DNA of 27,763 nt, from the NCBI GenBank assembly GCA_020430865.1, contig JAGQIY010000610.1, positions 1 to 27,763 on the forward strand, given 5' to 3'. Shown one piece after another: positions 6,964 to 26,676 of the stretch. Under the pieces are notes generated by a model. The model was not told where the DNA came from. It saw only the letters and a list, made by a program, of their open reading frames with translations, and made no database searches. Made by a program: the position numbers and the translations under genes. The stretch's first letter is position 1. Each line of letters opens with the position of its first letter. This stretch comes from Myxococcales bacterium (GTDB lineage Bacteria; Myxococcota; Polyangia; Polyangiales; Polyangiaceae).

Positions 6964-6973
6964 GAATCCAAGA

Positions 6974-8116: not shown

Positions 8117-8226
8117 ATTTTGGCGTGAACAACGGCAACTACCCCTTTTGGGGTTAGAGATCATTTTGCCTCCGCCAAACGGTATTGCAGCTTGCTTGCT
8201 GGACCTGCATACTTCCAGTTCCGACC

Positions 8227-8232
8227 AGGAGA
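8227..8232 (+). promoter_or_regulatory. Ribosome-binding site fixing the lipoprotein start at 8239
   Basis: AGGAGA lies six bases before the ATG at 8239. This decides against an in-frame upstream start at 8185, which would bury the signal peptide behind 18 unrelated residues. Confidence 0.75.
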
Positions 8233-8238
8233 TTGGCA

Positions 8239-10290
8239 ATGCGTTCAAGCGCGGTACTTGCGGCATTTTTACTATCGGCGATGTTCTTTGGCTGCGGAAG
8301 CGCGCCAACCTCCGAACGCACCGACGACGAGCAGAGTGAACTCTGCTCGTCCGGGGGACTTGTTTCGGACGATTCCGACAACGTTGCTTCGCCGGGAACA
8401 ATCGTCACTTGGACGGGAACTGCAAGCTGTGCGTTTCCGAATCCGGAATTTGAGTTCTGGCAGCGTGATACGACTGGAACTTGGAGCATTGTCCAAGGAT
8501 GGAGCACGTCGGACAAGTACGTTTGGGATACGACTGGTGCCGTCGAAGGGGAGTATGCGTGGCAAGTTTGGGCGCGCGAGGCCGGTTCGGTCGCGCCCTA
8601 CGAGACCTACCGGAGCCAACGCTTCAATATCACCAGTGCATCCCTGTGCACCTCGGTTAGCGCCGCAGCCAACCCGCCCGGCACTGCGGCCATAGGTACG
8701 ACGGTGAGCATCACAGGCTCGGCATCGTGCGGCGCTTCAACTCCCGAGTACGCGGTCTACCAGTTGAAGCCGGGCGACACCACGTACACGCTGCTCAATG
8801 CCTACACGACAACCGCAACGTTTGACTGGGACACAACCGGCGAATCGGCGGGCACGCACTACATACAAGTATGGGCGCGAGCCGTCGGGTCGCCCAAGGC
8901 CTATGACACGTACACCACGCTGGCGTACGTACTCGGTTCATCCGCGGTGTGTACCTCTCCGACGCTTGGGTTCAATCCCTCGAGTCCCGCGGCCGTTGGA
9001 ACGATCGTGGGGCTCACTGGCGCAGCATCTGGTTGCGGCACGCCGACGTTCAAGTACTGGATTCACCCCCCTGGGGGTGCGTGGCAGGTGCTCCAGGACT
9101 GGACCACGTCGTCCTTCCTAAACTGGAACACCACGGGGCAAACGACTGGGTACTACGGGTTTCAGCTCTGGGTGCGCCAATCGGGGTCTACCGCCAACTA
9201 TGAGAGCTACGCAAACGCCTCATACCTCCTCACCTCGGCGACGAATGGTGTGACTCAGCGCATTGGTGCGGGCGCACAGCACACCTGCCAGATTGCCTCG
9301 GCCGGAACCGCGAGGTGCTGGGGCTACAACGCAAATGGGCAACTCGGCAATGGCAGCACGACTGCGAGTATCGTTTCCGTTCCAGTGACCGGAATATCAT
9401 CCGCGACTGCCTTGGCAACCGGCTACTATCACAATTGTGTCATTGATGGCGGTGCGGTGAAATGCTGGGGTGCCAACCTTCGCGGACAGATCGGAAACGG
9501 ATCGACAACCGATGCGCCCACGCCTGTCGCGGTCTCGGGACTCTCAAATGTGACGTCCATCGCTGCGGGTGCGGCGCACACCTGCGCCGCTCTCATCGAT
9601 GGTTCGGTGCGCTGCTGGGGCTACAATAGCCAAGGCCAACTCGGCGATGGAACTCTGGTCGACCGAACGACGCCCGTGGTTGTCCCTGGCATTTTGAACG
9701 CCGTTCGAGTCGCGGCGGGCTACTACCACAGCTGTGCGTTGCTCGCGGACGGGACTGCGAAGTGCTGGGGGCTGAATGACCACGGTCAACTCGGTGACGG
9801 TACGACCACAAACTCGCTCACACCTGTCACGGTGACAGGTCTTTCGGGCGTGCAGACGATTTCGGCTGCGAGTTCTCACACATGTGCGTCACTCACCGGC
9901 GGCACAGCCAACTGTTGGGGCGCCAACAACAACGGAGTCTTGGGCGATGGGACCACAACAGACTCGAGTAGTCCCGTTGCCGTGAGCGGCCTAACCCAAG
10001 CCACCGCGGTGATTACCGGGCCCTACCACTCCTGCGCGGCAATTGGAGACGGATCTGCGCGCTGCTGGGGCTGGAACGTGTACGGCGAACTAGGTGACGG
10101 CACGAAGACAGACTCGCTGACTCCAGTAGTCGTCACGGGTCTGTCCACGGTCGATTCGATTGCCGTTGGCTGGCACCATTCATGCTCCGCACTTCAGGAT
10201 GGTACGGCGCAATGCTGGGGCTACAACGGCGTAGGACAGCTTGGAGATGGGACCCAGACCCAGAGTTCGACGCCGGTCCTCGTACAATGA
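8239..10290 (+). CDS. Lipoprotein with three ~97-residue repeats and a seven-bladed RCC1-like propeller
   Basis: A 683-residue predicted surface lipoprotein. MRSSAVLAAFLLSAMFFGC is a signal peptide with Cys19 as the likely lipidation site. Residues 36-135, 137-236 and 238-334 are three copies of a module that starts with a Cys, has ASC or ASGC near position 30, an aromatic core (Y/F-x-x-W...W), then WDTTG, QVWAR, GS-x3-YE-x-Y. I do not recognise this module as a named family. Residues ~338-683 contain seven copies of the RCC1 (regulator of chromosome condensation 1)-like repeat, each with H-x-C-A, CWG-x-N and G-x-LGDG, enough for one closed propeller. Such domains outside eukaryotes usually mediate binding, not catalysis. 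A paralogue with four of the same modules but no propeller lies at 25228-26526. Function is unknown; glycan binding is a guess from context. Confidence 0.88.
   Translation: MRSSAVLAAFLLSAMFFGCGSAPTSERTDDEQSELCSSGGLVSDDSDNVASPGTIVTWTGTASCAFPNPEFEFWQRDTTGTWSIVQGWSTSDKYVWDTTGAVEGEYAWQVWAREAGSVAPYETYRSQRFNITSASLCTSVSAAANPPGTAAIGTTVSITGSASCGASTPEYAVYQLKPGDTTYTLLNAYTTTATFDWDTTGESAGTHYIQVWARAVGSPKAYDTYTTLAYVLGSSAVCTSPTLGFNPSSPAAVGTIVGLTGAASGCGTPTFKYWIHPPGGAWQVLQDWTTSSFLNWNTTGQTTGYYGFQLWVRQSGSTANYESYANASYLLTSATNGVTQRIGAGAQHTCQIASAGTARCWGYNANGQLGNGSTTASIVSVPVTGISSATALATGYYHNCVIDGGAVKCWGANLRGQIGNGSTTDAPTPVAVSGLSNVTSIAAGAAHTCAALIDGSVRCWGYNSQGQLGDGTLVDRTTPVVVPGILNAVRVAAGYYHSCALLADGTAKCWGLNDHGQLGDGTTTNSLTPVTVTGLSGVQTISAASSHTCASLTGGTANCWGANNNGVLGDGTTTDSSSPVAVSGLTQATAVITGPYHSCAAIGDGSARCWGWNVYGELGDGTKTDSLTPVVVTGLSTVDSIAVGWHHSCSALQDGTAQCWGYNGVGQLGDGTQTQSSTPVLVQ
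8344..9240 (+). repeat. Three tandem ~97-residue modules (protein-level repeat)
   Basis: Three degenerate copies encode the Cys-start, ASC, WDTTG, QVWAR, YE-x-Y module. The first copy contains GGLV-x-DD-x-D, the same variant found in the first copy of the paralogue near 26400, indicating that the two genes descend from one ancestor with a shared N-terminal module. Confidence 0.85.
9250..10287 (+). repeat. Seven tandem RCC1-like repeats (~49 residues each)
   Basis: CWG followed by Y, A, Y, L, A, W or Y and then N occurs seven times at regular spacing, each followed by a G-x-LGDG or near variant (for example QLGNGSTT, QIGNGSTT, ELGDGTKT). Seven copies match the blade number of the RCC1 beta-propeller. 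Confidence 0.9.
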
Positions 10291-10297
10291 GGCGCGC

Positions 10298-11254
10298 CTA
10301 AGCAGTGGTCGCCACATAGGTTGCGATTCCGTATCGACGCGTCAGCTTCTGGACTCTGGAAACGATTGGCGCGGCCAGGCGGTCAATCGCAGTCAGAGGA
10401 TTGGCGAGCGCCCAATATGCGCTGGCGCCAAGTGTTGTTGACATCCCGTGGCTCTGGAGGAATTGCGTGCGATTCATCGGCACGTCCTGGAAAGTGTACG
10501 GCTTGCCAAGGACCCCGTGTAGACGAAAGCGAAGCCAGTTTATCGGTAGCATCGGATAGATTCGATCGCTGTACTCGACACGCAGCATGCGTAGGCCAGC
10601 CAATTCCAGGTAGCGTCGGACTGTTTCTTTGGTGAAGAAATAGAGGTGCCGTGGGACGTCTTCGCAGAAGAGGTGCCGCGACGCGACGCTTTCGAAGTTG
10701 GTGACTAGGAACGCGAAGCGACCTCCCGGTTTCAGCAGCCTGCCTGCTTTCTGAAAGTAGCCCATTGGGTCGTGCACATGCTCGAGAACCGCCCATGCAG
10801 TGATCGCGTCGAATACGGGTTCTCCAATCGGAATCGATGGGAATGCCGTTGTGTACACTGGAAAGTCGGCTATGGGACGGGAGGTCTCGGAAACTTCCAC
10901 ACCCTCAACATCCCATCCCCGGCTCATCATGTAGCGGGGGAAGTCTCCGTTCGCACAGCCGATGTCCAACAGCCGTGGTGTTGTGGTGGTCAGCTCAACA
11001 TCGCGGAGAAAGCTCGATTCCACCCGATATCGGCGCTCCTGGGATCGGCGGTCGCGTTCGAAGAAGTCGTAGAACTCGGCAGGATAGAATCGCGACATCT
11101 CAGCGAACGTCGGGCGTGGATTCACGAATCCAAGGCCGCAGCCCGTGCACTCAACAACATCGAACACCTCGTCCGGGAAGTACCGCGCGTCCGGCATCCG
11201 GTACGCGAGTCGGTTGTCTGCCGAACCACACAAGTTGCAGCGAACGGTTTCCAT
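10298..11254 (-). CDS. Zinc-ribbon class I SAM methyltransferase
   Basis: A 318-residue protein. I place the start at the ATG at 11254 because the family begins with the Cys pair C-x2-C (Cys6, Cys9) and a second pair at Cys36/Cys39 follows; the 22 extra residues available upstream look non-native. Motif I is RLLDIGCANGDFPRYM (94-109) and a later strand reads DAITAWAVLEHVHDP, then KPGGRFAFLVTNF. This arrangement, a four-Cys N-terminal knuckle followed by a methyltransferase domain, is common in polysaccharide and antibiotic sugar clusters, where it methylates sugars or nucleotide sugars. The substrate is unknown. It converges on the RCC1 lipoprotein gene with a seven-base gap and diverges from the next glycosyltransferase. 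Confidence 0.88.
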   Translation of the reverse strand: METVRCNLCGSADNRLAYRMPDARYFPDEVFDVVECTGCGLGFVNPRPTFAEMSRFYPAEFYDFFERDRRSQERRYRVESSFLRDVELTTTTPRLLDIGCANGDFPRYMMSRGWDVEGVEVSETSRPIADFPVYTTAFPSIPIGEPVFDAITAWAVLEHVHDPMGYFQKAGRLLKPGGRFAFLVTNFESVASRHLFCEDVPRHLYFFTKETVRRYLELAGLRMLRVEYSDRIYPMLPINWLRFRLHGVLGKPYTFQDVPMNRTQFLQSHGMSTTLGASAYWALANPLTAIDRLAAPIVSRVQKLTRRYGIATYVATTA

Positions 11255-11508
11255 GCGGCATGGAGACCTAGCGGGTCGACCTGGGTACGTCAAATGGCAA
11301 CTCGCACCGCAGGCGCTCACCGGTGCCGCGAAGCATCAGCAGGACCCATGAGTCTGACGAGACCTCTTCGGGCTCGGAACCTCGGTCACCAAGACGTCCC
11401 TGTCGCATTTTGGGTTGCTGCTCGGTCTGGCGGCGCCACATGGCAAGGGCTCGCCACCGCAGACCGACAAGTGATGAGTACTCTGCGAGCTCCGCTTGGT
11501 CCGGAGAA
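11255..11508. other. 254-base divergent intergenic region, no gene seen
   Basis: This stretch separates the zinc-ribbon methyltransferase (-) from the GT4 gene (+). The open frame that continues upstream of the GT4 gene gives Arg/Ser-rich residues unlike the family, so I treat it as non-coding. Promoters for both genes are expected here. I see only short palindromes, such as TGGCG-G-CGCCA at 11428-11438, and no convincing promoter boxes. Confidence 0.4.
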
Positions 11509-12684
11509 ATGGTCCGCAACGTGACGCCATTGACGGATAGGAAGAGGACCGGCACGCGGGTGTTGTTCGTGACTACTGGACTGGCCACCGGTGGAGCGGA
11601 GGCAATGCTCGTCAAGCTGCTGCCAAGCCTCCGCCAGCAGCGGATACAGGTCCGTGTGGCATCGTTGCTCGGTCACGGGACGCTGGGAGAGAAGCTCGAG
11701 CAGTTTGGAATTCGGGTTGTGGACCTAGGCATGCGTGACCTGCGGACGGCGCCGAAAGGGCTGGCCACATTCGCCCGCTCGGTTGCTGAGTTTCGCCCGA
11801 CCATTGTTCAGGGTTGGATGTACCATGGCAATCTCGTTGCGTCGGGCGCGATAGCGTGGCCAGGTCTTGGAGACCGTGTGGTGTTTGGAGTCCGACATTC
11901 GCTGCACGATCTTTCCCATGAGAGCCGAAGCACGCGATGGGCTATTCGTGCAAACAAGATCGTTTCTCCGATGGCGGCACGAGTTGTGTACAACTCGGAG
12001 ACTGCTCGCCGCCAACACGAACGACTCGGATTCTCGCATCGACGCTCTATAGTGGTCCCAAACGGGTTCGACGTGGCAACGTTCCGTCCGGATCCGGCAG
12101 CCCGAGCGGAGGTGAGGCATGAACTCCAATTGAAGGTCTCACAATGCCTTGTTGGCCTAGTGTCCCGCCTGCACCCCACGAAAGGACACGTCGTCCTGGC
12201 GCGGGCTGCGCGCGAAGTCTTGGACGCAAGGCCCGACGCTCAGTTTCTGCTAGTCGGACGGGGAGTTTCCGGGGAGGGAACAGAGCTTGCCAAAGTGATT
12301 CGGGACCTAGCGTTGTCTGGCAGCATCATTCGGCTTGACGAAAGGCAGGACATCCCGAGACTCACTGCGGCGCTGGATATCGCAGTCTCTGCCTCATGGG
12401 GAGAGGGATTCAGCAATGCGGTGGGCGAGGCAATGTGCTGTGGCGTGCCGTGCGTCGTGACGGACGTCGGCGACTCCCGGGCGATTGTGGGAAAGGCCGG
12501 TCGGGTTGTCGCTCCGGGCGACCACCATGCGCTCGCCAGATCCATTCTCGAACTGATCGGATTGCCAGCGGAACGACGACGCGAAATTGGCGAGGCTGCG
12601 CGCCAGCGCATTTTGGACAACTACTCCTTGCCGCGCGTAGTTGAGCAGTATCGCGACCTGTACACTACTATTTCAGGGTGCTAG
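11509..12684 (+). CDS. GT4-family glycosyltransferase
   Basis: A 391-residue cytosolic GT-B enzyme. The start is uncertain: the ATG at 11509 has GGAG only two bases upstream, and a GTG at 11521 is an alternative; both precede the first strand RVLFVTTG. Motifs are TTGLATGGAEAML (GGAE, acceptor side), VSRLHPTKGHVVLARA, and SWGEGFSNAVGEAMCCGVP, with both glutamates of E-x7-E present. It is the third glycosyltransferase that could extend the repeat unit. Its TAG stop interlocks with the TAG stop of the convergent amidotransferase gene in the shared CTAG at 12681-12684. Confidence 0.91.
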   Translation: MVRNVTPLTDRKRTGTRVLFVTTGLATGGAEAMLVKLLPSLRQQRIQVRVASLLGHGTLGEKLEQFGIRVVDLGMRDLRTAPKGLATFARSVAEFRPTIVQGWMYHGNLVASGAIAWPGLGDRVVFGVRHSLHDLSHESRSTRWAIRANKIVSPMAARVVYNSETARRQHERLGFSHRRSIVVPNGFDVATFRPDPAARAEVRHELQLKVSQCLVGLVSRLHPTKGHVVLARAAREVLDARPDAQFLLVGRGVSGEGTELAKVIRDLALSGSIIRLDERQDIPRLTAALDIAVSASWGEGFSNAVGEAMCCGVPCVVTDVGDSRAIVGKAGRVVAPGDHHALARSILELIGLPAERRREIGEAARQRILDNYSLPRVVEQYRDLYTTISGC

Positions 12685-14558
12685 CCGACACTGTCCGCGA
12701 AAGCCAATACGCTCTGCTTAGCGCGGCGCGAGTCGCGCCAAAGTCCGAGCACCAACAGAGTCCACAGTCTCGCGCTGTGATTCCGCTTGCGGGCCATGTG
12801 CTCTTGAATCATGTCGTCAACGAACTTGGTATTGCCGAGCTGGAACGCATCGAGCATCTGAGGCGTGACGGTGTCACGAAGTAGCTCGTTCAGCGGACCG
12901 CGCAACCATTCGGCCATGGGGACACCAAATCCGGCTTTTGGGCGATCGAGTAGCGCTTTGGGGATTCTCCTGTAGGCCAGCTCTTTTAGTAGGCGTTTTC
13001 CTCGGACAAGGTGCGGAGGCAAACGCAAACTGAACTCCACGAGCTCGTGATCGAGAAACGGGGCGCGCGTCTCCAGAGACACGGCCATTGCGGCCCGGTC
13101 GACCTTCACAAGTATTGTGTTTGGCAGATAGGTCACGAAGTCCCCCAGCATGGCGCGGCGGCGAATCGTGGGTAGCCGTGGCGCTTGCCAGGCTAGGTCC
13201 CACTGAGGGAGCGGAGGGCACCGGAGGGCAAGCGAGAGTACCTCCTCATCATCGAAAGGTCCTGCAAAGAGGCGCGCCACGTCGGCCACTGACTTCCCGA
13301 GAACGCGAGCGGCGCGACCGTATCGACCGGGAAGGCGAGTGGCGAGGCGGGAGAGCGTGCCTCCGCCGTATCGCGTGAGGCCTGCGAGTGGACGCACGCG
13401 GTCGAGCCAGTCGTATCGTCTGTAGCCTCCGAACAGTTCGTCGCCAGCGTCCCCTGATAGCGCCACTGTAACCTGGCGACGGGCTGCGCGGGACACGAGG
13501 TACGTTGGCAGCGCAGAGGAGTCAGCAAATGGCTCGCCGTAAAACTCCGGAATACGTGGTACCAACCGAAGTGCATCCGCGGAAGATAGCTGGTCTACCG
13601 TGTGCGCAGTCCCAAGGTGGTCCGCAACCCGCGCTGCAAAGGGGGACTCGTCGTATGCGGCTTCGGCGAAACCGATGGTGAATGTTCGGATTTTGGATGC
13701 ACCAAGTCGCACCATTGAGCTCACAATGACGCTTGAGTCAATGCCGCCAGAGAGGAATGCACCGAGCGGAACGTCAGCAACCATCTGGCGTGCAACCGCG
13801 CGGTCGACGAGGACTTCGAGTTCGTTCAGTGCGTCCTGGTCGGAAATGGGTCGCGTGGAACGATTGGCGATCTCAACAGGATCCCAGTATCTTTCGATCC
13901 GGGTTCTCCCAGTAGCACTCACGTGCATCCAATGGGCCGGCGGGAGTTTCCTGATCCCAAGCGAAATGGAATGGGGTGCAGGAACGCTTTGGTAACGAAG
14001 GTAGAGGGCGAGTGCGTCTGGATCGATGCTGGAATCGATCTCGGGGATGCCCGCGAGCGATGTGTACTCCGAGGCAAAGGCGAATAGTGTTGGGTTGGCG
14101 GAATAGTACAGAGGTTTCTCTCCGGCACGGTCGCGCGCCAAGAAAAGCTCACGGTGTCCGACGTCCCAGACGGCAAAGGCAAACATTCCGATGAGTCGGT
14201 GCACGACATCCCGGCCCCACACGCGGTAGCCCTCCAGAACGACTTCCGTGTCGGAGTGAGACGCGAACTGCGATCCCGACGAGCTGAGTTGCTCGCGAAG
14301 CTCTCGGAAATTGTAGATCTCACCGTTGAACACGATTACGAATTGTCCGTCGCGGGCGACCATGGGTTGATGACCGAGGGGCGACGTGTCAATGATCGAA
14401 AGCCGTCGATGCCCCAGGACTATTCCATCCTGTTGGCTCGACCAAACCCCGCGGTCGTCAGGGCCCCGGTGTGCTAGCCGGCGCATCATTGCCACGACGG
14501 TTGGCTCGAGTGGCTCGAGGGGCCCGTGCTGACTTAGTATTCCGGCAATGCCACACAT
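12681..14558 (-). CDS. asnB: Asparagine synthase-type glutamine amidotransferase (AsnB family)
   Basis: A 625-residue cytosolic enzyme. The start is fixed at the ATG at 14558 because the catalytic Cys must follow the initiator Met (MCGIAGIL). The N-terminal glutaminase domain has HRGPDD (30-35), FNGEIYNF (78-85) and SDTEVVLEGY (102-111); the C-terminal synthetase domain has the ATP-pyrophosphatase loop SGGIDSS (270-276), ALSGDAGDELFGGY and SLETRAPFLDHELVEF. The family transfers ammonia from glutamine to an activated carboxylate. In polysaccharide loci such proteins (for example WbpS) are thought to amidate uronic acids, and a WbpA-like dehydrogenase that makes uronic acids is at the left end, so sugar amidation is an inferred alternative to free asparagine synthesis. 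It is the only gene on its strand here, lying between two + strand genes. Confidence 0.92.
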   Translation of the reverse strand: MCGIAGILSQHGPLEPLEPTVVAMMRRLAHRGPDDRGVWSSQQDGIVLGHRRLSIIDTSPLGHQPMVARDGQFVIVFNGEIYNFRELREQLSSSGSQFASHSDTEVVLEGYRVWGRDVVHRLIGMFAFAVWDVGHRELFLARDRAGEKPLYYSANPTLFAFASEYTSLAGIPEIDSSIDPDALALYLRYQSVPAPHSISLGIRKLPPAHWMHVSATGRTRIERYWDPVEIANRSTRPISDQDALNELEVLVDRAVARQMVADVPLGAFLSGGIDSSVIVSSMVRLGASKIRTFTIGFAEAAYDESPFAARVADHLGTAHTVDQLSSADALRLVPRIPEFYGEPFADSSALPTYLVSRAARRQVTVALSGDAGDELFGGYRRYDWLDRVRPLAGLTRYGGGTLSRLATRLPGRYGRAARVLGKSVADVARLFAGPFDDEEVLSLALRCPPLPQWDLAWQAPRLPTIRRRAMLGDFVTYLPNTILVKVDRAAMAVSLETRAPFLDHELVEFSLRLPPHLVRGKRLLKELAYRRIPKALLDRPKAGFGVPMAEWLRGPLNELLRDTVTPQMLDAFQLGNTKFVDDMIQEHMARKRNHSARLWTLLVLGLWRDSRRAKQSVLAFADSVG

Positions 14559-14648
14559 CTGCTGAGAGGTTAGCCGAGACGGTGTCGATCGTGCAGCCGA
14601 TTCGGGAGTGAGCCAAACATCCGCCGGTGCGGAAAGATCCGGATAGTC

Positions 14649-16007
14649 GTGACTTCGAGGAGTGCCCAATCTGCGCCGAACCTGGCGATGGCGGTGTTGC
14701 GCGCCGCAATGCGTGTAAGTGCACTGTCATTCGTCGCGCTGGCTCTGCTCGGTGTGCGAGAAGTCCTGGCGGCGCGCGAGTTCGGGACCAGCGATGGAAT
14801 GGACGCTGCAGTGCTCGCGTATGCGGTTACAACGTTCTGCATAACGGTGATGGGAGCATCTGTCAGTAGCGCGTTCCTGCCGAGGTTCGTGCGGTTGCGC
14901 GAAAGCGGTGGACCGCGCGTGGCGCAACAGTTGCTGGACAGTGTGGCTGTGTCGGCGCTCACGCTCCTGGGGTTGATCGCGGTGGCGGTTCTGGCTGCAC
15001 GCGGCTGGATTCTCCCCCTACTGGCTGGTGGATTTCCGCCCGGCAAGTTGACGTTCACTGGATTGCTCTTGGGGGTGCTGGCGCTTGGCATCGTTCTTTC
15101 TGGAGTGACAAACGTATGGAAGGCAGTCCTGAATTCAGAGGGGCGATTTGCGGTTGCCGCGATTTCTCCGGCCTCCGTGCCGGTATTCGCGATCGTCGGT
15201 CTGATTCTCTTTGCGGAACGTATTGGCGTTCGTGCCCTCGTATGGGGTTCTCTGGTCGGGTACATCGTGGAAGCCGCACTTCTGGCGGTGGCCGTTAGAG
15301 CCTGCGGCTTCCGCGTTGTTCCGACCTCTTTTGTATGGTCTGAAGACCTCCGCGGGGTAGCAAGACAATACGTTCCGATGTTGGCCGGTGCGCTGGTTGG
15401 CAGCGCGGCGCCGCTGATTGATAGCGCCATGGCCACTGCCGTTGGCTCGGGCAGCGTCGCGGCTCTCGGATACGGAATCAAGCTCGTCCAGTTTCCTCTC
15501 GGTCTGGGAACCGTTGGCGTTAGCACGACGGCGTTCCCTACATACGCGAGTCTGGTCGCGCGCCGAGACTGGGAAACACTGCGAGGTCTGCGGCGGCTGC
15601 ACAGCGGGTACATACTGGCGTTCGGGATACCGGTTACCGTCGCGGTTGTCTGGAGCGCGCCGGTGCTCGTCCGCGTTGTGTTCCAACGAGGCGCATTCAC
15701 TGAAGCGGACACGCTCTTGATCGCTAGCGTGGTGCAGATGCTGGCTGTGAGGATTCCGGTCCACGTGCTCGCGGCGCTCAACGTGCGCTTGCTGTCGGCA
15801 CTTTCCGCCAATCAGACAATGTTTTGGGCCGCCTCTGTCAGTACTATCAGCAACGTAGTCCTGAACGTCTTGCTCGTGAGGTGGATGGGTTTGGCAGGGA
15901 TCGCGCTCTCCACGAGCTTGTCGACAGCGCTTACATACGGGCTCCTCGAGTGGGCCCTGCGCCGCAAGCTTGCGGAAACGATCCGCGTGTCGGCGACGAG
16001 CGACTAG
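14649..16007 (+). CDS. MurJ/MOP-family lipid-linked oligosaccharide flippase (Wzx role)
   Basis: A 452-residue inner-membrane protein with about 12-14 hydrophobic helices. Features resembling the MurJ branch of the MOP exporters are AREFGTSDGMDAAVLAYAV near the N-terminus, VMGASVSSAFLPRFVRL, LDSVAVSALTLLGLIAV, GYGIKLVQFPLGLGTVGVSTTAFP and VFQRGAFTEADT. MurJ flips lipid II, but homologues inside glycan loci usually serve as the repeat-unit flippase; with no other Wzx candidate in the window this is its likely job. The GTG at 14649 is the earliest plausible start, and an ATG 13 codons later is possible. It diverges from the amidotransferase gene with a 90-base gap and ends in a CTAG shared with the convergent oxidoreductase gene. 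Confidence 0.88.
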   Translation: MTSRSAQSAPNLAMAVLRAAMRVSALSFVALALLGVREVLAAREFGTSDGMDAAVLAYAVTTFCITVMGASVSSAFLPRFVRLRESGGPRVAQQLLDSVAVSALTLLGLIAVAVLAARGWILPLLAGGFPPGKLTFTGLLLGVLALGIVLSGVTNVWKAVLNSEGRFAVAAISPASVPVFAIVGLILFAERIGVRALVWGSLVGYIVEAALLAVAVRACGFRVVPTSFVWSEDLRGVARQYVPMLAGALVGSAAPLIDSAMATAVGSGSVAALGYGIKLVQFPLGLGTVGVSTTAFPTYASLVARRDWETLRGLRRLHSGYILAFGIPVTVAVVWSAPVLVRVVFQRGAFTEADTLLIASVVQMLAVRIPVHVLAALNVRLLSALSANQTMFWAASVSTISNVVLNVLLVRWMGLAGIALSTSLSTALTYGLLEWALRRKLAETIRVSATSD

Positions 16008-16939: not shown

Positions 16940-16977
16940 GGTGTGCTTCCACTCATTCGCAGAATGCGCGATCGGCG

Positions 16978-18948: not shown

Positions 18949-20099
18949 CGTGTCCCTGCTGCGCCGGGAGTGGTCAGGACTGCGTCGACCACGCGGTCCC
19001 GATCGGTATCCGACAGAGAGGAACCGCTGGGCAAGCAGAGCCCGGACTCAAACAGCTTCGTGCTCACATTGGTTCCGATGAAGGGAAACCTCTCGAATGC
19101 CGGCTGGAGGTGCATGGGTTTCCAAACCGGTCGAGCCTCGATGTTGTGCTCAGCCAGCCAGTCACATACGTCATCTCGCGACGCTCCAAATGCGCCCCCG
19201 TCCACCGTCGCGCAGGTGAGCCATCGCGTTGATCGGCCGTACTTCGCCTCTGGCATGAAAGTCCAGCCCGGCAGCCCGCCGAGCTTCCGTTGATATGCGC
19301 TGAAGTTCTCTCGGCGTTTGTCCACACGGCTTTCGAGGCGCGCGAGCTGCGCTCTTCCAACGCCAGCCAACAGGTTGCTCAGCCTGTAGTTGTAGCCTAC
19401 CTCCGAGTGTTGATAGTGGCGTGCAGGCTCACGCGCCTGCGTCGCGAGGTGGCGCGCGCGTTCGATCCACAGCTTGTTCTTCGACACGAGCATTCCGCCA
19501 CCCGAGGTCGTGATGATCTTGTTGCCATTGAAAGAGAACACGCCCAGGTCGCCCAACGTCCCCGCCGGTTGCTCACGGTACGTTGCACCAAGCGCTTCGG
19601 CCGCGTCTTCAACGATGGGTACGTCGAATTCCGCGCACACCTCGCGGATGCGATCGTAGTCGGAGCACTGCCCATACAAGTCCACAGTGATGACCGCTGC
19701 CACCCTTCGGCCGAGTCGCTTCCGGCTCTCGAGTGCCTCAAGCAGGAGGTCAGGGTCCATAGTCCAGGTGGACTCGAGCGAGTCCACGAATACGGGAGTT
19801 GCTCCGACGTACCGCACCGCGTTCGCTGTCGCCGCAAAGGTTAAGGTTGACACCACGACCTCATCCGTAGAGCGAACACCCAGCACCAGAAGCGCCAGGT
19901 GCAGCGCGGCTGTTCCGCTCGAAAGAGCCACCGCGCAGAACTGGTCCCCGAGTCGCGCGCAGATCTCTGCCTCAAAAGCGTCTACGTGTGGGCCCAACGG
20001 AGCGATCCAGTTCGAAGCGAAGGCGTCCAGTAGAAGCCGCCGTTCTTCTTCGCCGACGTGAGGAGGGGAGAGGTAGATCTGTGCTTCGCTGAAAGTCAT
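18945..20099 (-). CDS. pglE: PLP-dependent UDP-4-keto-6-deoxy-GlcNAc 4-aminotransferase (PglE-like, DegT/DnrJ/EryC1 family)
   Basis: A 384-residue cytosolic aminotransferase. The ATG at 20099 overlaps the pglD stop in ATGA and gives the usual family length; the open frame upstream is Arg-rich and runs antisense-like through pglD. It starts IYLSPPHVGEEERRLL and ASNWIAPLGPHVDAFE, almost the same wording as Campylobacter PglE. VEDAAEALGATY (163-174) and FSFNGNKIITTSGGG (188-202) include the PLP-binding Lys194, and RPVWKPMHLQPAF and LCLPSGSSLS close the protein. It transfers an amino group from glutamate to C4, giving UDP-4-amino-4,6-dideoxy-GlcNAc. Its position between dehydratase and acetyltransferase genes supports this. 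Confidence 0.94.
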   Translation of the reverse strand: MTFSEAQIYLSPPHVGEEERRLLLDAFASNWIAPLGPHVDAFEAEICARLGDQFCAVALSSGTAALHLALLVLGVRSTDEVVVSTLTFAATANAVRYVGATPVFVDSLESTWTMDPDLLLEALESRKRLGRRVAAVITVDLYGQCSDYDRIREVCAEFDVPIVEDAAEALGATYREQPAGTLGDLGVFSFNGNKIITTSGGGMLVSKNKLWIERARHLATQAREPARHYQHSEVGYNYRLSNLLAGVGRAQLARLESRVDKRRENFSAYQRKLGGLPGWTFMPEAKYGRSTRWLTCATVDGGAFGASRDDVCDWLAEHNIEARPVWKPMHLQPAFERFPFIGTNVSTKLFESGLCLPSGSSLSDTDRDRVVDAVLTTPGAAGTR

Positions 20100-20743
20100 G
20101 CGTCCTCGCGCTGCTGGCGGATGATTCGGGCCGGCACTCCGACTGCCACGGCTCCCGCCGCGATGTCGCGGATAACGACGGCTCCAGCTCCGGCAATTGC
20201 ACCGGCGCCAATTGTAGTCATCGGCAGCATCGTTGCGCCTATTCCCAGTTGGGCCAGTTCGCCAACACGCGCCGCTCCTCCCACCGTAGCGTTGGGCGAG
20301 ACGTGCGCGAATCTTTCGACCACCGCGTCGTGCTCGATGATAGCTCCGGTGTTGATTATTGCGCCTGGGCCGACGGAAGCCTCGGCATTTACCACCGCAT
20401 TTGCCAAAACCACGCACCCCATACCCAGGTGCGCGGACACGGCAACGGTGGCGGACGGATGGACTGCTGTGTGCAACTTGAAGCCAAGTCTTGCGATTTG
20501 TTCTGCGATCCGTGCACGCTGGTCGTTCGCGCCGATTGCCAGCACGAGCTCTATGCTTGCCCGACTTTGCGAACCAAGCCAGCCGAGGGTTCCTAGAACG
20601 GGAAGACCGAGCACGGTTGCTCCCGCCTTGCCTGGGTCGTCGTCCAGGAAGCCTGCCACGACTCTGTTTTCGCGTAGAGCGCAGTCTGCGACTACTTTGC
20701 CGTGTCCGCCAGCGCCAACAACTACCGTCTCGACTACGGACAC
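20096..20743 (-). CDS. pglD: UDP-4-amino-sugar N-acetyltransferase (PglD/NeuD family)
   Basis: A 215-residue acetyl-CoA-dependent enzyme. The N-terminal nucleotide-binding half carries VVVGAGGHGKVVAD (7-20) and FLDDDPGK; the C-terminal half (from ~95) is a left-handed beta-helix of hexapeptide repeats, with the catalytic segment NTGAIIEHDAVVERFAHVSP placing His138 and His147 where PglD has its active-site histidines. It acetylates the C4 amine to give UDP-N,N'-diacetylbacillosamine. The start is a GTG at 20743, three bases after the pglC stop, and the gene overlaps pglE by four bases. NeuD-type sugar acetyltransferases are the alternative, but the pglC-F context is decisive for me. Confidence 0.93.
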   Translation of the reverse strand: MSVVETVVVGAGGHGKVVADCALRENRVVAGFLDDDPGKAGATVLGLPVLGTLGWLGSQSRASIELVLAIGANDQRARIAEQIARLGFKLHTAVHPSATVAVSAHLGMGCVVLANAVVNAEASVGPGAIINTGAIIEHDAVVERFAHVSPNATVGGAARVGELAQLGIGATMLPMTTIGAGAIAGAGAVVIRDIAAGAVAVGVPARIIRQQREDA

Positions 20744-20746
20744 CGA

Positions 20747-21379
20747 CTAGTCCCCTTCGGCCGGTGCCGCGTTGCCTAGGAACTCCGGCATTGTTGCGTG
20801 TTCATCAGCGTTCACGCCGCTTCGCTGCAAGACCCGCAGCGCCGTCAAGGCTAGTATCTTCGCGTCCAACGAGAGCGACCAGTTGTCGACGTACCAGAGG
20901 TCGAAAGCGAATTTCTCTTGCCAGCTCAGTTGGTTCCGTCCGCAGACCTGGGCCCAGCCGGTAATGCCGGGCAGTACGTCGTGTCTCCTAAGCTGTTCCG
21001 GGGAATAGCGTTCCAGATACTTCATGAGGAGGGGACGTGGGCCCACGAGGCTTAGGTCGCCACGCAGCACGTTCCAGAGTTGAGGGAGCTCATCGAGGCT
21101 CGCGCTTCGAAGGAACCGACCCACCGCGGTCAAGCGATCGGCGTCTGGCAAGTCGCGGCCAGTATCATCCGTCCGGTTCGCCATCGTTCGAAGCTTGAGA
21201 AGCGTGAACGGCCGACCTTTCAGTCCGGGTCGCACCTGTCGGAAAAGTATCGGCCGACCCATGGTGGCCCAAATCGCCAGGGCGGCGGCGCCGAGGACCG
21301 GACTGAGCAGAATCAGCCCAGTGCCAGCCGCCACGCGGTCAAACGTGACCTTGACCACCTTTGGAAAGCCCCGTTGCAT
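20747..21379 (-). CDS. pglC: Initiating phosphoglycosyltransferase (PglC-like, monotopic bacterial sugar transferase)
   Basis: A 210-residue membrane-associated enzyme that transfers phospho-sugar from a UDP-sugar to undecaprenyl phosphate, here probably diNAcBac-1-phosphate. I place the start at the ATG at 21379, giving the ~200-residue minimal length of PglC; the open frame extends back to 21559 but that part overlaps a palindrome and looks non-native. Visible: the re-entrant membrane helix FDRVAAGTGLILLSPVLGAA, FRQVRPGLKGRPFTLLKLRTM, the Asp-Glu pair in SASLDELPQLWNVLRGD, SLVGPRPLLMKYL and PGITGWAQVCGRN, and the family C-terminus LTALRVLQRSGVN. Small size without extra membrane helices separates it from WcaJ/WbaP-type enzymes. 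First gene of the operon. Confidence 0.94.
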   Translation of the reverse strand: MQRGFPKVVKVTFDRVAAGTGLILLSPVLGAAALAIWATMGRPILFRQVRPGLKGRPFTLLKLRTMANRTDDTGRDLPDADRLTAVGRFLRSASLDELPQLWNVLRGDLSLVGPRPLLMKYLERYSPEQLRRHDVLPGITGWAQVCGRNQLSWQEKFAFDLWYVDNWSLSLDAKILALTALRVLQRSGVNADEHATMPEFLGNAAPAEGD

Positions 21380-21547
21380 ACCGTCTCGTTTCGTTGCCTC
21401 AAGGTCGAGTTGGATTCTACTACCAGGTTGCCTGCGTCCACCCAGCGCCATAAACTCAGCGACCCTGGGGACGAATTGGGGGCCGTGGCCCCCGATTGAA
21501 CTTGTGGCCGTTAAGCCGCAACTCATGCAGTCCGGGTTCTTTCTCCG
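21380..21547. promoter_or_regulatory. Divergent promoter region between pgl operon and Wzz/BY-kinase gene
   Basis: These 168 bases should contain the promoters of the pglC-D-E-F operon (-) and the tyrosine-kinase/membrane-protein pair (+). The strongest visible structure is a near-perfect palindrome at 21474-21497, listed separately. I do not see convincing -35/-10 boxes, and the ATG at 21548 lacks a clear Shine-Dalgarno. Confidence 0.4.
21474..21497. promoter_or_regulatory. 24-bp near-perfect palindrome (operator-like or hairpin)
   Basis: The arms AATTGGGGGCC (21474-21484) and GGCCCCCGATT (21487-21497) pair over 11 positions with a single T:G mismatch and a two-base GT centre. It sits 50 bases before the BY-kinase ATG and 95 bases before the pglC ATG, the right place for a shared regulator site. 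No U-tract follows on either strand, so an intrinsic terminator is unlikely. Confidence 0.5.
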
Positions 21548-23770
21548 ATGCTCCCGCACGACATAACCGAAACCTCAGACGGTTCGAAGGACGACGGCCT
21601 TTCCGCTCGCGAGGTCTGGGGAGCGCTGCGCAAACACTGGGTAATCCTCGTGGTTATCGCAGTTGGGGTTACCCTCTTGGCCACGTTCTACGCCATGGGT
21701 CAGACGAAGGTCTACCGGGCCGCGAGCACAATCCAGATCGATCCCACACCTCCGAAACCCCTTGGCAACGACGTCCAGAGCGTGGACGTAGGCGCTGGTG
21801 CCTACTGGGCAAACAAGGAGTACTACGAAACGCAGTACAAGATCATTGCGAGTCGCCGGGTTGCTCTCCTGACAGTTCGCGCACTGGGGCTGCAACACGA
21901 CTCTGCATTCCTTGAAAACGCGTTGTCATCGTCGAGCGATGCGAACGTTACGCCGGAAGAGGCCGCAGAGGTCTTGCGCTCAAGAGTCCACGTCGAGCCA
22001 GAGAAAGACAGTCGGCTGGTGATCGTCAGTTTCGAGGATGCCGACCCGTCGCGTGCACAGCGCATCGTTTCCGCGCTGGTCGACACGTACATTAGGGAGA
22101 ACCTCGATAGCGCCCTCTCTTCAAACCAATCGTCGGGCGATTGGTTGCGAGGTCAGCTGAGCAAGCTGAAGAAGGAGCTCGAAACCAGTGAACTGAAGCT
22201 ACATGAGTACAAGCGCGACAAGAATATCCTTTCAATGTCCATGGACGACCAATCGAACATGTTGCGCGAGGAAATGCGCCAGCTCAATGAAGCCTTGACC
22301 GGCGTCCGAGCGAGGCAGGAAAAGATTTCGGCCCGCAAGAGCGAGTTGCAGAAGATCAGCGCCGATAACCCGACGGATCTTCCGGCGCGCGAACTGCTCG
22401 AAAGCCAAGTGCTGCAACAACTTCGCGGCGACTACGTTGCCGCGAAGCGAGACGAACAGAGTCTGCTCCAATCGGGCAAGGGGCCCAATCACCCGGACGT
22501 AAGAGCTGCTGCAGCGCGCACCGCGGTGACGCGTAAGGCCCTTCTAGCCGAGATATCCAATATCAAGCGTTCGGTTGATCGCGACTTGGATGCAGCCAAG
22601 AGGGAGGTGCGCGGGCTCAGCCATCTGTACGAGGCGGCGAAGCGAAAGGCGCTGAACGTCAACCTGTTGGAGATCGAGTACAAGCGACTTGAGCGCTCAA
22701 AAAAGAACACCGAGAAACTCTACTCGCTCGTTCTCGAACGATCCAAGGAGAGCGAGTTGGCCGGGTTGATGCGCTTCAACAACATCAGAGTCGTAGATTC
22801 CGCGCTCGTACCGACCAAGCCAGTTAGGCCCAACATCCCGTTCAGTGCTGGCGTGGGCCTATTAGTGGGACTTGCGATCGGATTCGCCTCCGCACTCGCC
22901 CGCGAATTGTTGGACCGAAGCATCAAGACTGCGGCCGATGTCGAGCGAGAACTCGACACATCGTTGCTTGGTACGCTGCCAAAAGTGGATAGCTCGGACA
23001 GTGGGTATGGCAGCTACGGCCCGCGGCACCGGCGGCTCAAACGCTCTCCGGCGAGCGACGCGCCGCCAGAACTTGTGGTCCACACTCACCCCACCAGCGC
23101 GGTAGCAGAGGCTGCTCGTGCAATGCGTACCAATATTCTGTTCATGTCGCCGGACAAGCCATTTACGCGGTTGCTGGTTACCAGTGCGGCGCCGTCGGAA
23201 GGGAAAACCACGGTGGCGTGCTGCCTCGCCACCGCGATGGCTCAGGCGGGTCACCGCGTGCTTCTGATCGACTGTGACTTGCGGCGGCCGCGACTGCACA
23301 AGATCTTCCGCAAACGCAACGACATTGGCATCACCACCGGGCTGCTCGACCGAACGCTGCTGGCGACCGCAGATCTGAGCACGGACGTGGAGCACTTGAG
23401 CGTCCTTCCGGCCGGGCCAAGTGTGCCAAATCCGGCCGAGATTATTCAAAGCACGAGCTTTGCCCGGTTGCTCGACCATGTTCAAGCTGACTACGACCGG
23501 GTCGTGATCGACAGCCCACCGCTAATTCCCGTAACAGACGCAGCCGTGTTGTCGTCGCTCGTTGATGGTACTGTGGTGGTGGTGCGTGCCTTCAAGACGA
23601 GCAAGGATGTTGGCCGTCACGCGCTGCGCTCGCTTCGTGCAGTCGGGTCACGAATCGTCGGGGTGGTTCTTAACCTTGTCGAATCACGGTCTGCTGGGTA
23701 CGGGTATTACTACCACTACTATGGTAGTTCCACCGACGGTGAGGACGGGGCGAGGGCTGCCGCAGAATAG
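21548..23770 (+). CDS. Polysaccharide co-polymerase fused to bacterial tyrosine kinase (Wzz/BY-kinase)
   Basis: A 740-residue inner-membrane protein controlling chain length and export. Residues ~20-50 contain the first membrane helix (HWVILVVIAVGVTLLATFYA) of a Wzz domain, followed by a long periplasmic coiled-coil region rich in Lys/Glu (~190-390). A second helix near 430-450 (IPFSAGVGLLVGLAIGFASA) follows the PxxP-like segment PTKPVRPNIP. The cytoplasmic kinase domain has Walker A SAAPSEGKTT (546-555, Lys553), Walker A' LLIDCDLRRPRLH and Walker B DRVVIDSPPL, and the C-terminus carries the expected tyrosine cluster GYGYYYHYYG as autophosphorylation sites. The single-chain form is usual in Proteobacteria. 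It forms a two-gene unit with the following membrane protein. Confidence 0.94.
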   Translation: MLPHDITETSDGSKDDGLSAREVWGALRKHWVILVVIAVGVTLLATFYAMGQTKVYRAASTIQIDPTPPKPLGNDVQSVDVGAGAYWANKEYYETQYKIIASRRVALLTVRALGLQHDSAFLENALSSSSDANVTPEEAAEVLRSRVHVEPEKDSRLVIVSFEDADPSRAQRIVSALVDTYIRENLDSALSSNQSSGDWLRGQLSKLKKELETSELKLHEYKRDKNILSMSMDDQSNMLREEMRQLNEALTGVRARQEKISARKSELQKISADNPTDLPARELLESQVLQQLRGDYVAAKRDEQSLLQSGKGPNHPDVRAAAARTAVTRKALLAEISNIKRSVDRDLDAAKREVRGLSHLYEAAKRKALNVNLLEIEYKRLERSKKNTEKLYSLVLERSKESELAGLMRFNNIRVVDSALVPTKPVRPNIPFSAGVGLLVGLAIGFASALARELLDRSIKTAADVERELDTSLLGTLPKVDSSDSGYGSYGPRHRRLKRSPASDAPPELVVHTHPTSAVAEAARAMRTNILFMSPDKPFTRLLVTSAAPSEGKTTVACCLATAMAQAGHRVLLIDCDLRRPRLHKIFRKRNDIGITTGLLDRTLLATADLSTDVEHLSVLPAGPSVPNPAEIIQSTSFARLLDHVQADYDRVVIDSPPLIPVTDAAVLSSLVDGTVVVVRAFKTSKDVGRHALRSLRAVGSRIVGVVLNLVESRSAGYGYYYHYYGSSTDGEDGARAAAE

Positions 23771-23777
23771 AGGAAAG
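23771..23777 (+). promoter_or_regulatory. Ribosome-binding site for the 23782 gene
   Basis: AGGAAAG lies four bases before the ATG at 23782 and directly after the stop of the kinase gene, supporting co-transcription and the chosen start. Confidence 0.7.
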
Positions 23778-23781
23778 ACGA

Positions 23782-25086
23782 ATGCGGGATGTTATCGCCG
23801 TCTTCCTTCTAGTTGTCGTCTCATCAGTAGGGTTCGGCCCAGCCGTCCGACGCATGCTGGGGTCGGAACGGATTGTGGTTTGGCTCGGGTTCGCGCTTCA
23901 CGCTTCCGTGCCGTATCTTACGCTTTGGATCATGCACACTGCCTACGGCAGCGTTGCCGATGCGTTGAGCTACTATCACTTCGGTGAGGGGGTAGCTCGA
24001 TTTGTCAGTCTGGACATCAAGAACAACGCTGGCGAGTTGCTCAAGTTGATCTTTCAGCAAGACGCTCGAATCCCGGCGACGGTCTATGGCGTAGGGAGCC
24101 CGACGGGAACGATGACGGGGATCGCTGCGCTGTTGGTTCTGACGATTGGCGGCGCATGGCCGAGCACGGTGGCTGTTAGCCTGTTCTCGTATTCGGGGCA
24201 GGTTGCAGCATATTCAGCCATGCGCACTCACTTCGGTCGAGCGCCGATTCCCATTGCTGTTGGGATGCTGCTAGTTCCGTCGGTTGTGTTCTGGACGAGC
24301 TCGCTGCAGAAGGAAACGCTGGCGGTGGCTGGGTTGGGTTGGCTCGTATTTGCGCTCGTGTCCTTCATGCAGAAACGTGTGTTCCGCGGCGTCGTGATTG
24401 GGGTCATGGCGGCAGGGCTTGTCGCGTTGACCAAGCCATACGTGCTTCTGCCCGCGGCGATGGCGGCGGGCGTTTGGTTCTACTGGCGGCAGGCCGCGGG
24501 TGGCACGGGCCCGAAAATAAGGCCAATGTGGCTAGTCCTTGCATTCGTCTTTACGGCGGTCGCGATTGCAGCACTTGGGTCAGCATTCCCGCAGTTCGCG
24601 TTCGAGCGCTTCGCTGACGAGGCTGCTGCTCGACGACACGCTGGAGGGTTGGTTGGCGGGGGCTCGTACTTCGAGATCGGCAGCGTGGAAAACACTGGGT
24701 TTTGGTCCCTGATGGCGCTGGCGCCGATGGGCCTGCTCTCTGCACTGTTCCGGCCATCCGTATTCGATGTGAAAAATTCGCTGATGGCGGTCAACGCGTT
24801 CGAAACGTCGCTCCTGACCGTCTTGATGGTGGTAACCGCCGTTCGATTCGGCTTTCGTGGAGCAGGAAAAAAGGTCGCAGCCTCACCAGCGCTGGTCTTC
24901 TTTTTCGTCTTCACGGTGGTATTTGCTTTGGCGGTCGGCTTGACCACCACAAATCTTGGGACGCTTTCTCGCTACCGCGTTCCGATGATGCCGTTCTTCG
25001 CAACGCTCGTGGCTGCTCTTGCGATCGGGCGGCAGAAACGCCGAGTGGTTGTTCTTCGCCAGGAACGTCCTCCCGCCTCCGCCTAA
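23782..25086 (+). CDS. Polytopic inner-membrane protein, candidate Wzy-type polymerase
   Basis: A 434-residue protein with about ten hydrophobic helices. I do not recognise a named domain with certainty. Features seen: a polar loop ADALSYYHFGEGVARF after the second helix, resembling the Asp-x-x-x-Tyr-Tyr loop of some O-antigen polymerases and EpsG-like proteins; PSVVFWTSSLQKETLAV, resembling the P-x4-W-x5-K/R-E stretch seen in such polymerases; and a C-terminal NLGTLSRYRVPMMPFFATL, a pattern known in polymerases and in lipid-linked glycosyltransferases. Position directly after the Wzz/BY-kinase gene suits a polymerase. The Wzy_C protein at 1302 may instead be a ligase, or each may act on a different product. 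Function is inferred. Confidence 0.75.
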   Translation: MRDVIAVFLLVVVSSVGFGPAVRRMLGSERIVVWLGFALHASVPYLTLWIMHTAYGSVADALSYYHFGEGVARFVSLDIKNNAGELLKLIFQQDARIPATVYGVGSPTGTMTGIAALLVLTIGGAWPSTVAVSLFSYSGQVAAYSAMRTHFGRAPIPIAVGMLLVPSVVFWTSSLQKETLAVAGLGWLVFALVSFMQKRVFRGVVIGVMAAGLVALTKPYVLLPAAMAAGVWFYWRQAAGGTGPKIRPMWLVLAFVFTAVAIAALGSAFPQFAFERFADEAAARRHAGGLVGGGSYFEIGSVENTGFWSLMALAPMGLLSALFRPSVFDVKNSLMAVNAFETSLLTVLMVVTAVRFGFRGAGKKVAASPALVFFFVFTVVFALAVGLTTTNLGTLSRYRVPMMPFFATLVAALAIGRQKRRVVVLRQERPPASA

Positions 25087-25227
25087 AGGTTGACCCGATT
25101 TCCGGCACGAGCCACGTATACGGACGTAGCGGAACCGAGGACTCCCCCCGTAAGCTGTCCAAGCATCACGGGGGGAGACCGCACAGCCTCTTTGAGCGGG
25201 CCGAGGCGGTTCACGTGCCGGGGCCCT
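25087..25227. other. Gene-free gap between convergent genes
   Basis: These 141 bases separate the ends of the 23782 membrane-protein gene (+) and the four-repeat lipoprotein gene (-). The only structure seen is the hairpin at 25142-25177. Confidence 0.5.
25142..25177. terminator. Perfect 10-bp GC-rich hairpin between convergent genes
   Basis: CTCCCCCCGT (25142-25151) and ACGGGGGGAG (25168-25177) are exact reverse complements with a 16-base loop. Location between two converging stop codons suits a bidirectional terminator, but there is no T-run on either side, so it would be an atypical intrinsic terminator or an RNA-end stabiliser. Confidence 0.5.
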
Positions 25228-26526
25228 CTAGTTGAGCGTGTACGACTTGGTGCGATATGTTTCGTAGCTGGCGGTGGAACCAACCTGGCGGGCCCATACC
25301 TGGAAGAGGAAGTTGCCCGTCGGCTCTGATCCTGTTGCCCAGTCATAGGTTGGACTGGCACTCCAGTCCTGGACCACCGCCCACGAGCCACCCGGCGGGA
25401 GTTTCCAAAACTTGAATTCCGCTGCAGTGCAACTTGCGGCGCCGCCAGTCAGCTGCACCGGCGTGCCGACGCTTTGCGGGCTGGCCGGCGAAGCGTCGAG
25501 CGTCGCGCCCGTACACGCCGCTCCACCCGTCAATAGCGTGTAGGTTGAGCTGCCGTATGCCTCATAGGCGTAGGGAGAACCCTGATTCCGTACCCAGGTC
25601 TGGAAACTATAGACGCCTGGTGCAGCGGCAGTCGTGTCCCAGTTGTATACGTTGGAAGCGCCCATGGGCTGTACCTCAGACCACGCGCCGCCCGGGGCCT
25701 TCATCCAGAAGGCGTAGTTCGCAGTTCCCCCACAGCTGGCGTTCGCTGTAATACTTACCGGGTTACCGGGGAGTGTAGAGCCTGCCGGGCTGAAAGCGTT
25801 GCTAACTGAATTACAGGCCGTGGCGAGGGAGTAGTAGAAACTAGTGTAGGTGTCGTAGTCAGCAGGAGAGCCAAGCGCGCGTGCCCAAACTTGGAAGTTG
25901 TGGGTTCCCGCCGGCGCGCCCGTTGTCGCCCAGTTGTACATCGGCGATGTGGTCCAGTCCGCGGCGACGGCCCACGAACCGCCAGGAGCCAAGTGCCACA
26001 CTTTGTACTCCGGTGTGGAAGCGCCACAGCTCGCGCTACTGGTTATCCCGACTGTCGCTCCGATCGTCGTTTGGCCACTCGGCGACGTCGCGCTGCTTAC
26101 GGAGCTGCATTTCGTCACATTCGCGAGCGTGAAGGGGCGGCTCTTCCACGTTTCGTACGTCGACGGCGAACCTTGCGCTCGGATCCAGACCTGAACGTTA
26201 TAGCTGCCCGTGGCGAGGCCCGTCGTGTCCCAGTCAAAGAAATCCGTGGTGCTCCAGTCCTGCCACACGGTCCACGAGCCTCCCGGCGGAAGAACCCAAA
26301 ATTTGTATTCGGGCGTGTCTCCCACTTCACAGCTTGCTGAGGCCGTCCATTTCACCATGGTGCCCGGGGGTGCAAAGTAGTCCGCGTCGTCCGCGACCAA
26401 ACCACCTTGGGCGCAGACCTCGTCAGAAAAAGCCGCGACCGGCTCCCTATCTTCACCCGCACCCGCGGAACAACCTGCGACAGCCACCGCTAACAGTCCT
26501 TGCGACACGAGCTTCGACAAACGCAT
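25228..26526 (-). CDS. Lipoprotein made of four ~97-residue repeats
   Basis: A 432-residue predicted surface lipoprotein. The ATG at 26526 is chosen because GGAGG lies just upstream and the signal peptide MRLSKLVSQGLLAVAVAGC starts there; Cys19 follows a good lipobox (AVAGC). After a short acidic linker, four copies of one module occupy residues 38-135, 140-235, 238-332 and 338-432, ending exactly at the C-terminus. Each copy begins with Cys, carries ASC near position 28, then a Y/F-x-F/V-W strand, PGG-x-W, W-x-TS, Y-x-W-D/A-TTG, F-Q-V-WAR and GSP-x2-YE-x-Y. The same module occurs three times in the lipoprotein at 8239. The two conserved Cys per copy could form a disulphide. The fold looks all-beta, but I know no named family for it. 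Likely exposed on the outer membrane; glycan binding is a guess from context. Confidence 0.87.
   Translation of the reverse strand: MRLSKLVSQGLLAVAVAGCSAGAGEDREPVAAFSDEVCAQGGLVADDADYFAPPGTMVKWTASASCEVGDTPEYKFWVLPPGGSWTVWQDWSTTDFFDWDTTGLATGSYNVQVWIRAQGSPSTYETWKSRPFTLANVTKCSSVSSATSPSGQTTIGATVGITSSASCGASTPEYKVWHLAPGGSWAVAADWTTSPMYNWATTGAPAGTHNFQVWARALGSPADYDTYTSFYYSLATACNSVSNAFSPAGSTLPGNPVSITANASCGGTANYAFWMKAPGGAWSEVQPMGASNVYNWDTTAAAPGVYSFQTWVRNQGSPYAYEAYGSSTYTLLTGGAACTGATLDASPASPQSVGTPVQLTGGAASCTAAEFKFWKLPPGGSWAVVQDWSASPTYDWATGSEPTGNFLFQVWARQVGSTASYETYRTKSYTLN
25231..26415 (-). repeat. Four tandem ~97-residue modules (protein-level repeat)
   Basis: The copies are degenerate at DNA level but clear at protein level, with the WAR/VR-x-x-GS-x3-YE-x-Y signature in all four and Cys at the start of each. 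They fill the whole mature protein, so the module is probably an independent folding unit. Confidence 0.87.
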
Positions 26527-26530
26527 TGGG

Positions 26531-26539
26531 TTCCTCCGT
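26531..26539 (-). promoter_or_regulatory. Ribosome-binding site for the four-repeat lipoprotein
   Basis: On the minus strand ACGGAGGAA precedes the ATG at 26526 with four to five bases of spacing, a strong Shine-Dalgarno that overrules the in-frame start 11 codons upstream. Confidence 0.75.
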
Positions 26540-26560
26540 ATTGATCGGGTTGAATTCATC

Positions 26561-26593
26561 GTGAACAGTTCACGCCATGTGACGCGATGTCAA
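26561..26593 (-). promoter_or_regulatory. Putative promoter with overlapping operator palindrome
   Basis: On the minus strand a consensus -35 box TTGACA (26593-26588) is followed after 17 bases by AACTGT (26570-26565), a poor -10 box. The -10 area lies inside the perfect palindrome GTGAAC-A-GTTCAC (26561-26573). A palindrome over a -10 element is the usual place for a repressor or an activator that remodels the promoter. The start of the lipoprotein coding region is about 35 bases further on. Confidence 0.5.
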
Positions 26594-26676
26594 GGGTGGG
26601 CTTCGTAGCGGAATTTCAAGCGGATTTAATGTCCGCTAGCTGCGCTCCATCGCCAAGCTCGCTCGCGACGGGTCCT

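Follow-up and report, generated by a model that had tools for sequence, protein, structure and literature searches.

Why does a polysaccharide locus carry two lipoprotein genes built from the same repeated module, and where did the pair come from? The question arose from a 27,763-nucleotide stretch of contig JAGQIY010000610.1 of a Myxococcales bacterium (assembly GCA_020430865.1; hereafter the window), in which a Wzx/Wzy-type polysaccharide region at 1302..27507 encloses the genes for two proteins, P0001 (8239..10290, plus strand, 683 amino acids (aa)) and P0002 (25228..26526, on the opposite, minus strand). The reading that we favor, and consider probable, is that both are secreted, lipid-anchored rods of immunoglobulin (Ig)-like modules of the Y_Y_Y type, with P0001 bearing in addition a propeller that serves as a binding head.

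Two predicted lipoproteins built from one module

P0001 consisted of a signal with a lipobox-like cysteine (Cys19), three modules, namely A1 (residues 34-134, 8338..8640), A2 (residues 135-235, 8641..8943) and A3 (residues 236-336, 8944..9246), and a C-terminal seven-bladed RCC1 propeller (residues 337-683, 9247..10287), all on the plus strand. P0002 contained four modules and no other domain, read on the minus strand as B1 (26116..26421), B2 (25822..26115), B3 (25522..25821) and B4 (25231..25521). Its open reading frame (ORF) remained open upstream to an ATG at 26559, while the later Met is the start of P0003, a near-identical database protein. The seven copies were 97-102 aa long, and all 21 copy pairs scored 153-279, with top scores of 47-69 after shuffling (200 shuffles per pair), which bore out the three and four copies of an original prediction made from the DNA letters alone. 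The seven-bladed RCC1 propeller that it had seen in one gene was placed in P0001 by RCC1 matches and fold, with seven repeats above the cut-off and a closed seven-bladed structure. Its view that the first copies are most alike did not hold, as the best between-gene pair by identity was instead that of the second copies (A2-B2, 55.1%), followed by A3-B4 (52.6%) and A1-B1 (47.5%).

A profile built from the seven copies found 670 modules in 160 of 163 proteins, the remaining three being non-homologous genes of the window. Among the 555 modules of at least 85 aa (near-identical P0003 excluded and shorter pieces dropped), 409 had both cysteines of a conserved pair, 34 had one and 112 had none. Taking modules as independent, this coupling has a p of about 1e-79, a figure inflated by kinship, and the both-or-neither pattern suggests a disulfide.

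Signals and their cysteines were read by the lipobox rule. In P0001 the candidate lipobox, FFGC, has an atypical residue at position -3, and all 12 aligned RCC1-form proteins shared Cys19 as well as five of the six module cysteines of P0001. The P0002 signal peptide ends in the lipobox VAGC, as read from the sequence by eye. P0002 is a predicted and P0001 a candidate lipoprotein, both presumably exported to the outer membrane. When the two longer proteins of the 12 were set aside, the propeller was slightly better conserved (0.58) than the modules (0.49-0.51) in the remaining 10.

Family and predicted fold of the module

The module had been thought to lack a name, yet by homology it is of the kind known as Y_Y_Y in Pfam (PF07495) and as the triple tyrosine motif in NCBIfam, forming a subgroup below the curated Pfam threshold. 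It looked unnamed because the window proteins themselves score below the Y_Y_Y cut-off. P0002 matched Pfam Y_Y_Y with 20.9 bits against a curated cut-off of 26.6 bits, P0001 gave no Y_Y_Y match at E ≤ 1, and the seven copies scanned one by one against Pfam gave none either, although three of the seven had a weak match to Big_7 (best E 0.037). On their own scores, then, these are not Pfam Y_Y_Y members, and the assignment comes through their homologues. In alignment A5, made of P0002 and 18 of its 94 matches chosen for length, all 19 proteins matched Y_Y_Y at E ≤ 0.01 (best 9.6e-15). Precomputed annotation placed PF07495 in 62 of the 94 homologues of P0002 and in 55 of the 73 homologues of the module part of P0001, with the window's own copies scored as misses; both lists are lower bounds (at least 94 and at least 73), drawn from the 7,997 and 7,994 candidates sharing most words. 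The NCBIfam triple tyrosine motif (NF010681, PRK14081) matched P0002 at E 1e-8, with scores of 33.9 bits for P0002 and 29.2 bits for P0001, far under the curated cut-off of 842 bits. P0002 also had a subthreshold match to CBM_15. PF07495 and the window modules agree in that the family is present in similarly built homologues and that the model predicts an Ig-like beta-sandwich; they differ in length, with 65 model positions against 97-102 aa, and in the cysteine pair of the window copies. The module is therefore not new but a recognized, common Ig-like building block.

The AlphaFold model of P0002 (predicted local distance difference test, pLDDT, 88.1) consisted of beta strands, and its structural matches were complement proteins and proteins of the fibronectin type III (FnIII) and Ig types, so that the predicted fold of the module is an Ig-like beta-sandwich. 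By sequence, P0002 matched nothing in the PDB at E ≤ 1, and copy B4 gave a single match, at E 0.71. Among the structural matches listed, the tightest fit to a single module was Sas6 of Ruminococcus bromii (7uww and 7uwv), with a root-mean-square deviation of 1.6-1.7 Å over 82-83 residues and 22% identity. According to their titles the Sas6 structures were crystallized with maltodextrin-type ligands, and we make no claim of glycan binding by the matched stretch (582-665), which we take to flank CBM74.

Kinship with the coronavirus 3C-like protease was considered and judged a chance likeness because only about 50 residues match. Peptidase_C30 (PF05409), the family of that protease, matched three of the 19 members of A5 (best E 6.7e-9), and the protease likeness recurred in the PDB at E 0.005, where the next listed matches were antibody light chains and CD276, as expected of an Ig fold. 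P0022 and P0097-P0099, proteins built of Y_Y_Y-type modules, are annotated as PF05409, probably a false family match.

Distribution of the two architectures

Of the 94 homologues of P0002, 7 combined the module with RCC1 repeats, as did 13 of the 73 homologues of the module part of P0001, the latter count including the query and P0133, a homologue named Myxococcota bacterium that carries the RCC1-like PF25390. In P0080 the annotated RCC1 repeats are accompanied by four C-terminal modules (299-682 of 697), so that the domain order seems reversed relative to P0001. Elsewhere the module was combined with CAP (PF00188), trypsin (PF00089), amidase (PF01510), GH18 (PF00704), PQQ (PF13360), FG-GAP (PF13517) and fn3 (PF00041). 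Literature searches found no paper joining 'Y_Y_Y domain', RCC1 and lipoprotein, and none on myxobacteria or exopolysaccharide with both RCC1 and Wzx. A rod of Y_Y_Y-type modules with an RCC1 propeller is thus a recurring lipoprotein type, a known module and a known propeller in an under-described combination, standing here in a fitting place.

Scanning viral_contigs by patterns, an approach limited to close relatives, returned nothing for P0001 or for the module alignment (alignment A3). P0001 matched 23 phage records, and all 20 listed start at residue 316 or later and therefore fall on its RCC1 part. It also matched 85 plasmid records, and none of the 12 listed begins before residue 294; P0002 had no plasmid match. 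A genome scan with two short patterns gave 43 matched stretches, of which one was confirmed, on an 8,992-base Methanothrix contig. In ORFs of at least 150 aa read by eye, that contig had no evident glycan gene, and together with the many unrelated fusion partners this weighs against the module being a marker of glycan loci.

The Methanothrix protein, encoded at 4590-8222 (plus strand) of this contig from a metagenome-assembled genome, has 1210 aa and, by eye, about seven similar Ig-like repeats without the cysteine pair; a search of the same genome with PF07495 gave nothing at E ≤ 0.001.

Proposed function and its rivals

Computation supported the module family (through homologues), the predicted fold, the repeat layout and the propeller, as well as the coupled cysteine pair and the lipobox-like cysteine, and it indicated that the pair of genes predates the locus. 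Beyond these, the proposed mechanism would have the cysteine pair form a disulfide and both proteins reach the outer membrane, where P0002 would be a bare rod of four modules, and the three-module rod of P0001 would act as a spacer holding the RCC1 propeller away from the membrane to bind a partner. That this partner is the polysaccharide made by the locus would be the least certain step. A protein partner appears no less likely than a glycan, because the RCC1-type structures with a partner named in their title bind proteins, the bacterial BLIP-II among them.

The strongest rival to the favored reading is that the two are general surface proteins (for adhesion, protein-protein contact, predation or vesicles) in a gene-rich, often rearranged surface island and have no functional tie to the polymer. 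The module's widespread mix-and-match architectures, the locus genes on both strands and the protein partners named in RCC1-type structure titles all favor it, as does one report that names an RCC1 repeat protein among proteins of extracellular type accompanying outer-membrane vesicles of Myxococcus (PMC4158809). Against it, two members within 18.3 kb seem more than random scatter would suggest. We give this explanation slightly less than an even chance.

That the pair instead forms a dedicated glycan-handling system of the Wzx/Wzy locus, with propeller or modules binding the exported polymer and keeping it on the outer membrane, seems unlikely to us. It draws on one locus, other proteins combine the module with domains as varied as CAP, trypsin, amidase, GH18, PQQ and the FG-GAP type, and the Methanothrix relative lacks an evident glycan gene nearby, although one locus in favor and a single distant one against decide nothing.

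Two known systems bear on glycan binding, BT4663 and PorZ, whose propellers are presumably not of the RCC1 type. BT4663-type hybrid two-component sensors of Bacteroides resemble P0001 in combining seven-fold propellers and Y_Y_Y in one extracytoplasmic protein; the BT4663 propellers reportedly bind disaccharides, and its Y_Y_Y domain is described as a spacer also engaged in dimerization (PMC5121618). However, these sensors have two propellers ahead of Y_Y_Y and a transmembrane histidine kinase, whereas in P0001 the modules precede the propeller and follow a candidate lipobox. PorZ is a surface protein of propellers and a beta-sandwich that binds a surface glycan, anionic lipopolysaccharide (PMC8545088), but its sandwich is the C-terminal domain of the type IX secretion system (T9SS), by which it reaches the surface. 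P0001 was rejected as a PorZ member, PorZ having two propellers and then a C-terminal sandwich and P0001 having modules and then one RCC1 propeller. With its RCC1 propeller and reversed order, P0001 belongs to neither the BT4663 nor the PorZ family, and by analogy both are leads only for glycan binding. Their chains were absent from the best 50 structural matches listed, which excludes neither. UVR8, with a seven-bladed propeller of the UVR8/RCC1 kind, is a plant photoreceptor, whereas P0001 carries its propeller on a Y_Y_Y-type rod preceded by a signal and a candidate lipobox.

The boldest proposal, that bare rod and rod with RCC1 head form a recurring pair of outer-membrane lipoproteins acting, like PorZ, as surface receptor or tether of the Wzx/Wzy polymer, appears improbable; an RCC1 head that bound the polymer would be an unusual way to hold exopolysaccharide on the cell.

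Origin of the pair

The module tree comprised 86 modules from 24 proteins over 98 columns, and many of its forks were unresolved. At its core was a sample of 19 proteins, eight of the four-module form and 11 three-module RCC1 proteins. The module-1 copies of all 19, with those of two longer RCC1 proteins, formed one branch (21 rows, support 100/98), and 18 of the 19 module-2 copies grouped on a branch that held five other rows as well (99/80). Across RCC1 forms, the module adjoining the propeller also formed a group (13 rows, 87/81). Modules 3 and 4 of the four-module form were themselves not single branches; no RCC1-form module grouped with module 3 (the B3 position) in this tree, nor did the tree confirm the A3-B4 link seen by identity. 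The extra copies in P0100 and P0102, RCC1 forms with four and five modules, mostly grouped with module 2. The RCC1 proteins P0138, P0142 and P0147 grouped apart (12 rows, 95/97), and modules and propeller may therefore have been joined more than once.

A second tree used modules 1, 2 and last of the 19, chosen for like length and layout, joined end to end. P0011 and P0048, present in an earlier tree, were dropped because modules 2-4 of the former and all four of the latter group within their own protein; P0100, P0102, P0138, P0142 and P0147, with four or five modules, were likewise confined to the module tree, and P0080 (propeller before modules) and P0133 were in none of the trees. The nearest relative of P0001 was the RCC1-form P0030 (51% identity, joined at 97/95), and that of P0002 was the four-module P0006 (56% identity). 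Placing P0001 and P0002 as sisters was rejected by the approximately unbiased (AU) test, with a log-likelihood 30.7 units lower and a p-AU of 0.005, so that under this model a duplication within the locus is rejected. On these trees, two forms older than the locus meet here, and neither was made here recently. Whole-gene duplication, as first proposed for the pair, thus stands only as an older event, for which the positional match of copies 1 and 2 speaks; the accompanying gain or loss of a propeller fits the recurrence of both architectures elsewhere.

A recent duplication inside the locus followed by propeller gain or loss is hardly credible against the cost of the sister constraint and the two separate nearest relatives, even though the copies correspond by identity (A1-B1, A2-B2, A3-B4), only P0030 lies closer to P0001 than P0002 does when measured by path in the tree, and the split between the two architectures has a support of only 55/77.

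The surrounding polysaccharide locus

Both lipoprotein genes lie inside a Wzx/Wzy locus, as originally predicted. Gene coordinates are ORF bounds, with true starts not settled. Upstream of P0001 lie Wzy_C (1302-3908), a GT4 (3746-5101), a methyltransferase (5098-5895) and a second GT4 (6974-8116). Between P0001 and P0002 follow a methyltransferase (10298-11320), a GT4 (11323-12684), an AsnB-like gene (12681-14669), a MurJ-like flippase (14649-16007), Gfo/Idh (16004-16939), a CapD-type gene (16978-18948), a DegT aminotransferase (18945-20417), a Bac_transf sugar transferase (20747-21559) and a Wzc-type kinase (21548-23770). Adjoining the kinase, a hydrophobic membrane-type protein of 434 aa (23782-25086, plus strand) had no significant Pfam or NCBIfam match and is possibly, at a guess, a second polymerase-like protein. 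The AsnB-like gene matched 508 plasmid records, all below 60% identity.

A third lipoprotein-like gene, P0163 (5892..6905, minus strand, 337 aa), encodes a cysteine after its signal and a Gly/Ser-rich linker. It had no Pfam match at E ≤ 10, and its homologues were five distant matches and a piece of itself; its C-terminal part looks, we presume, LamG/ConA-like. The locus genes occupy both strands. A further methyltransferase stands at 26677-27507, and the left edge of the window has a minus-strand gene of the UDP-glucose dehydrogenase type.

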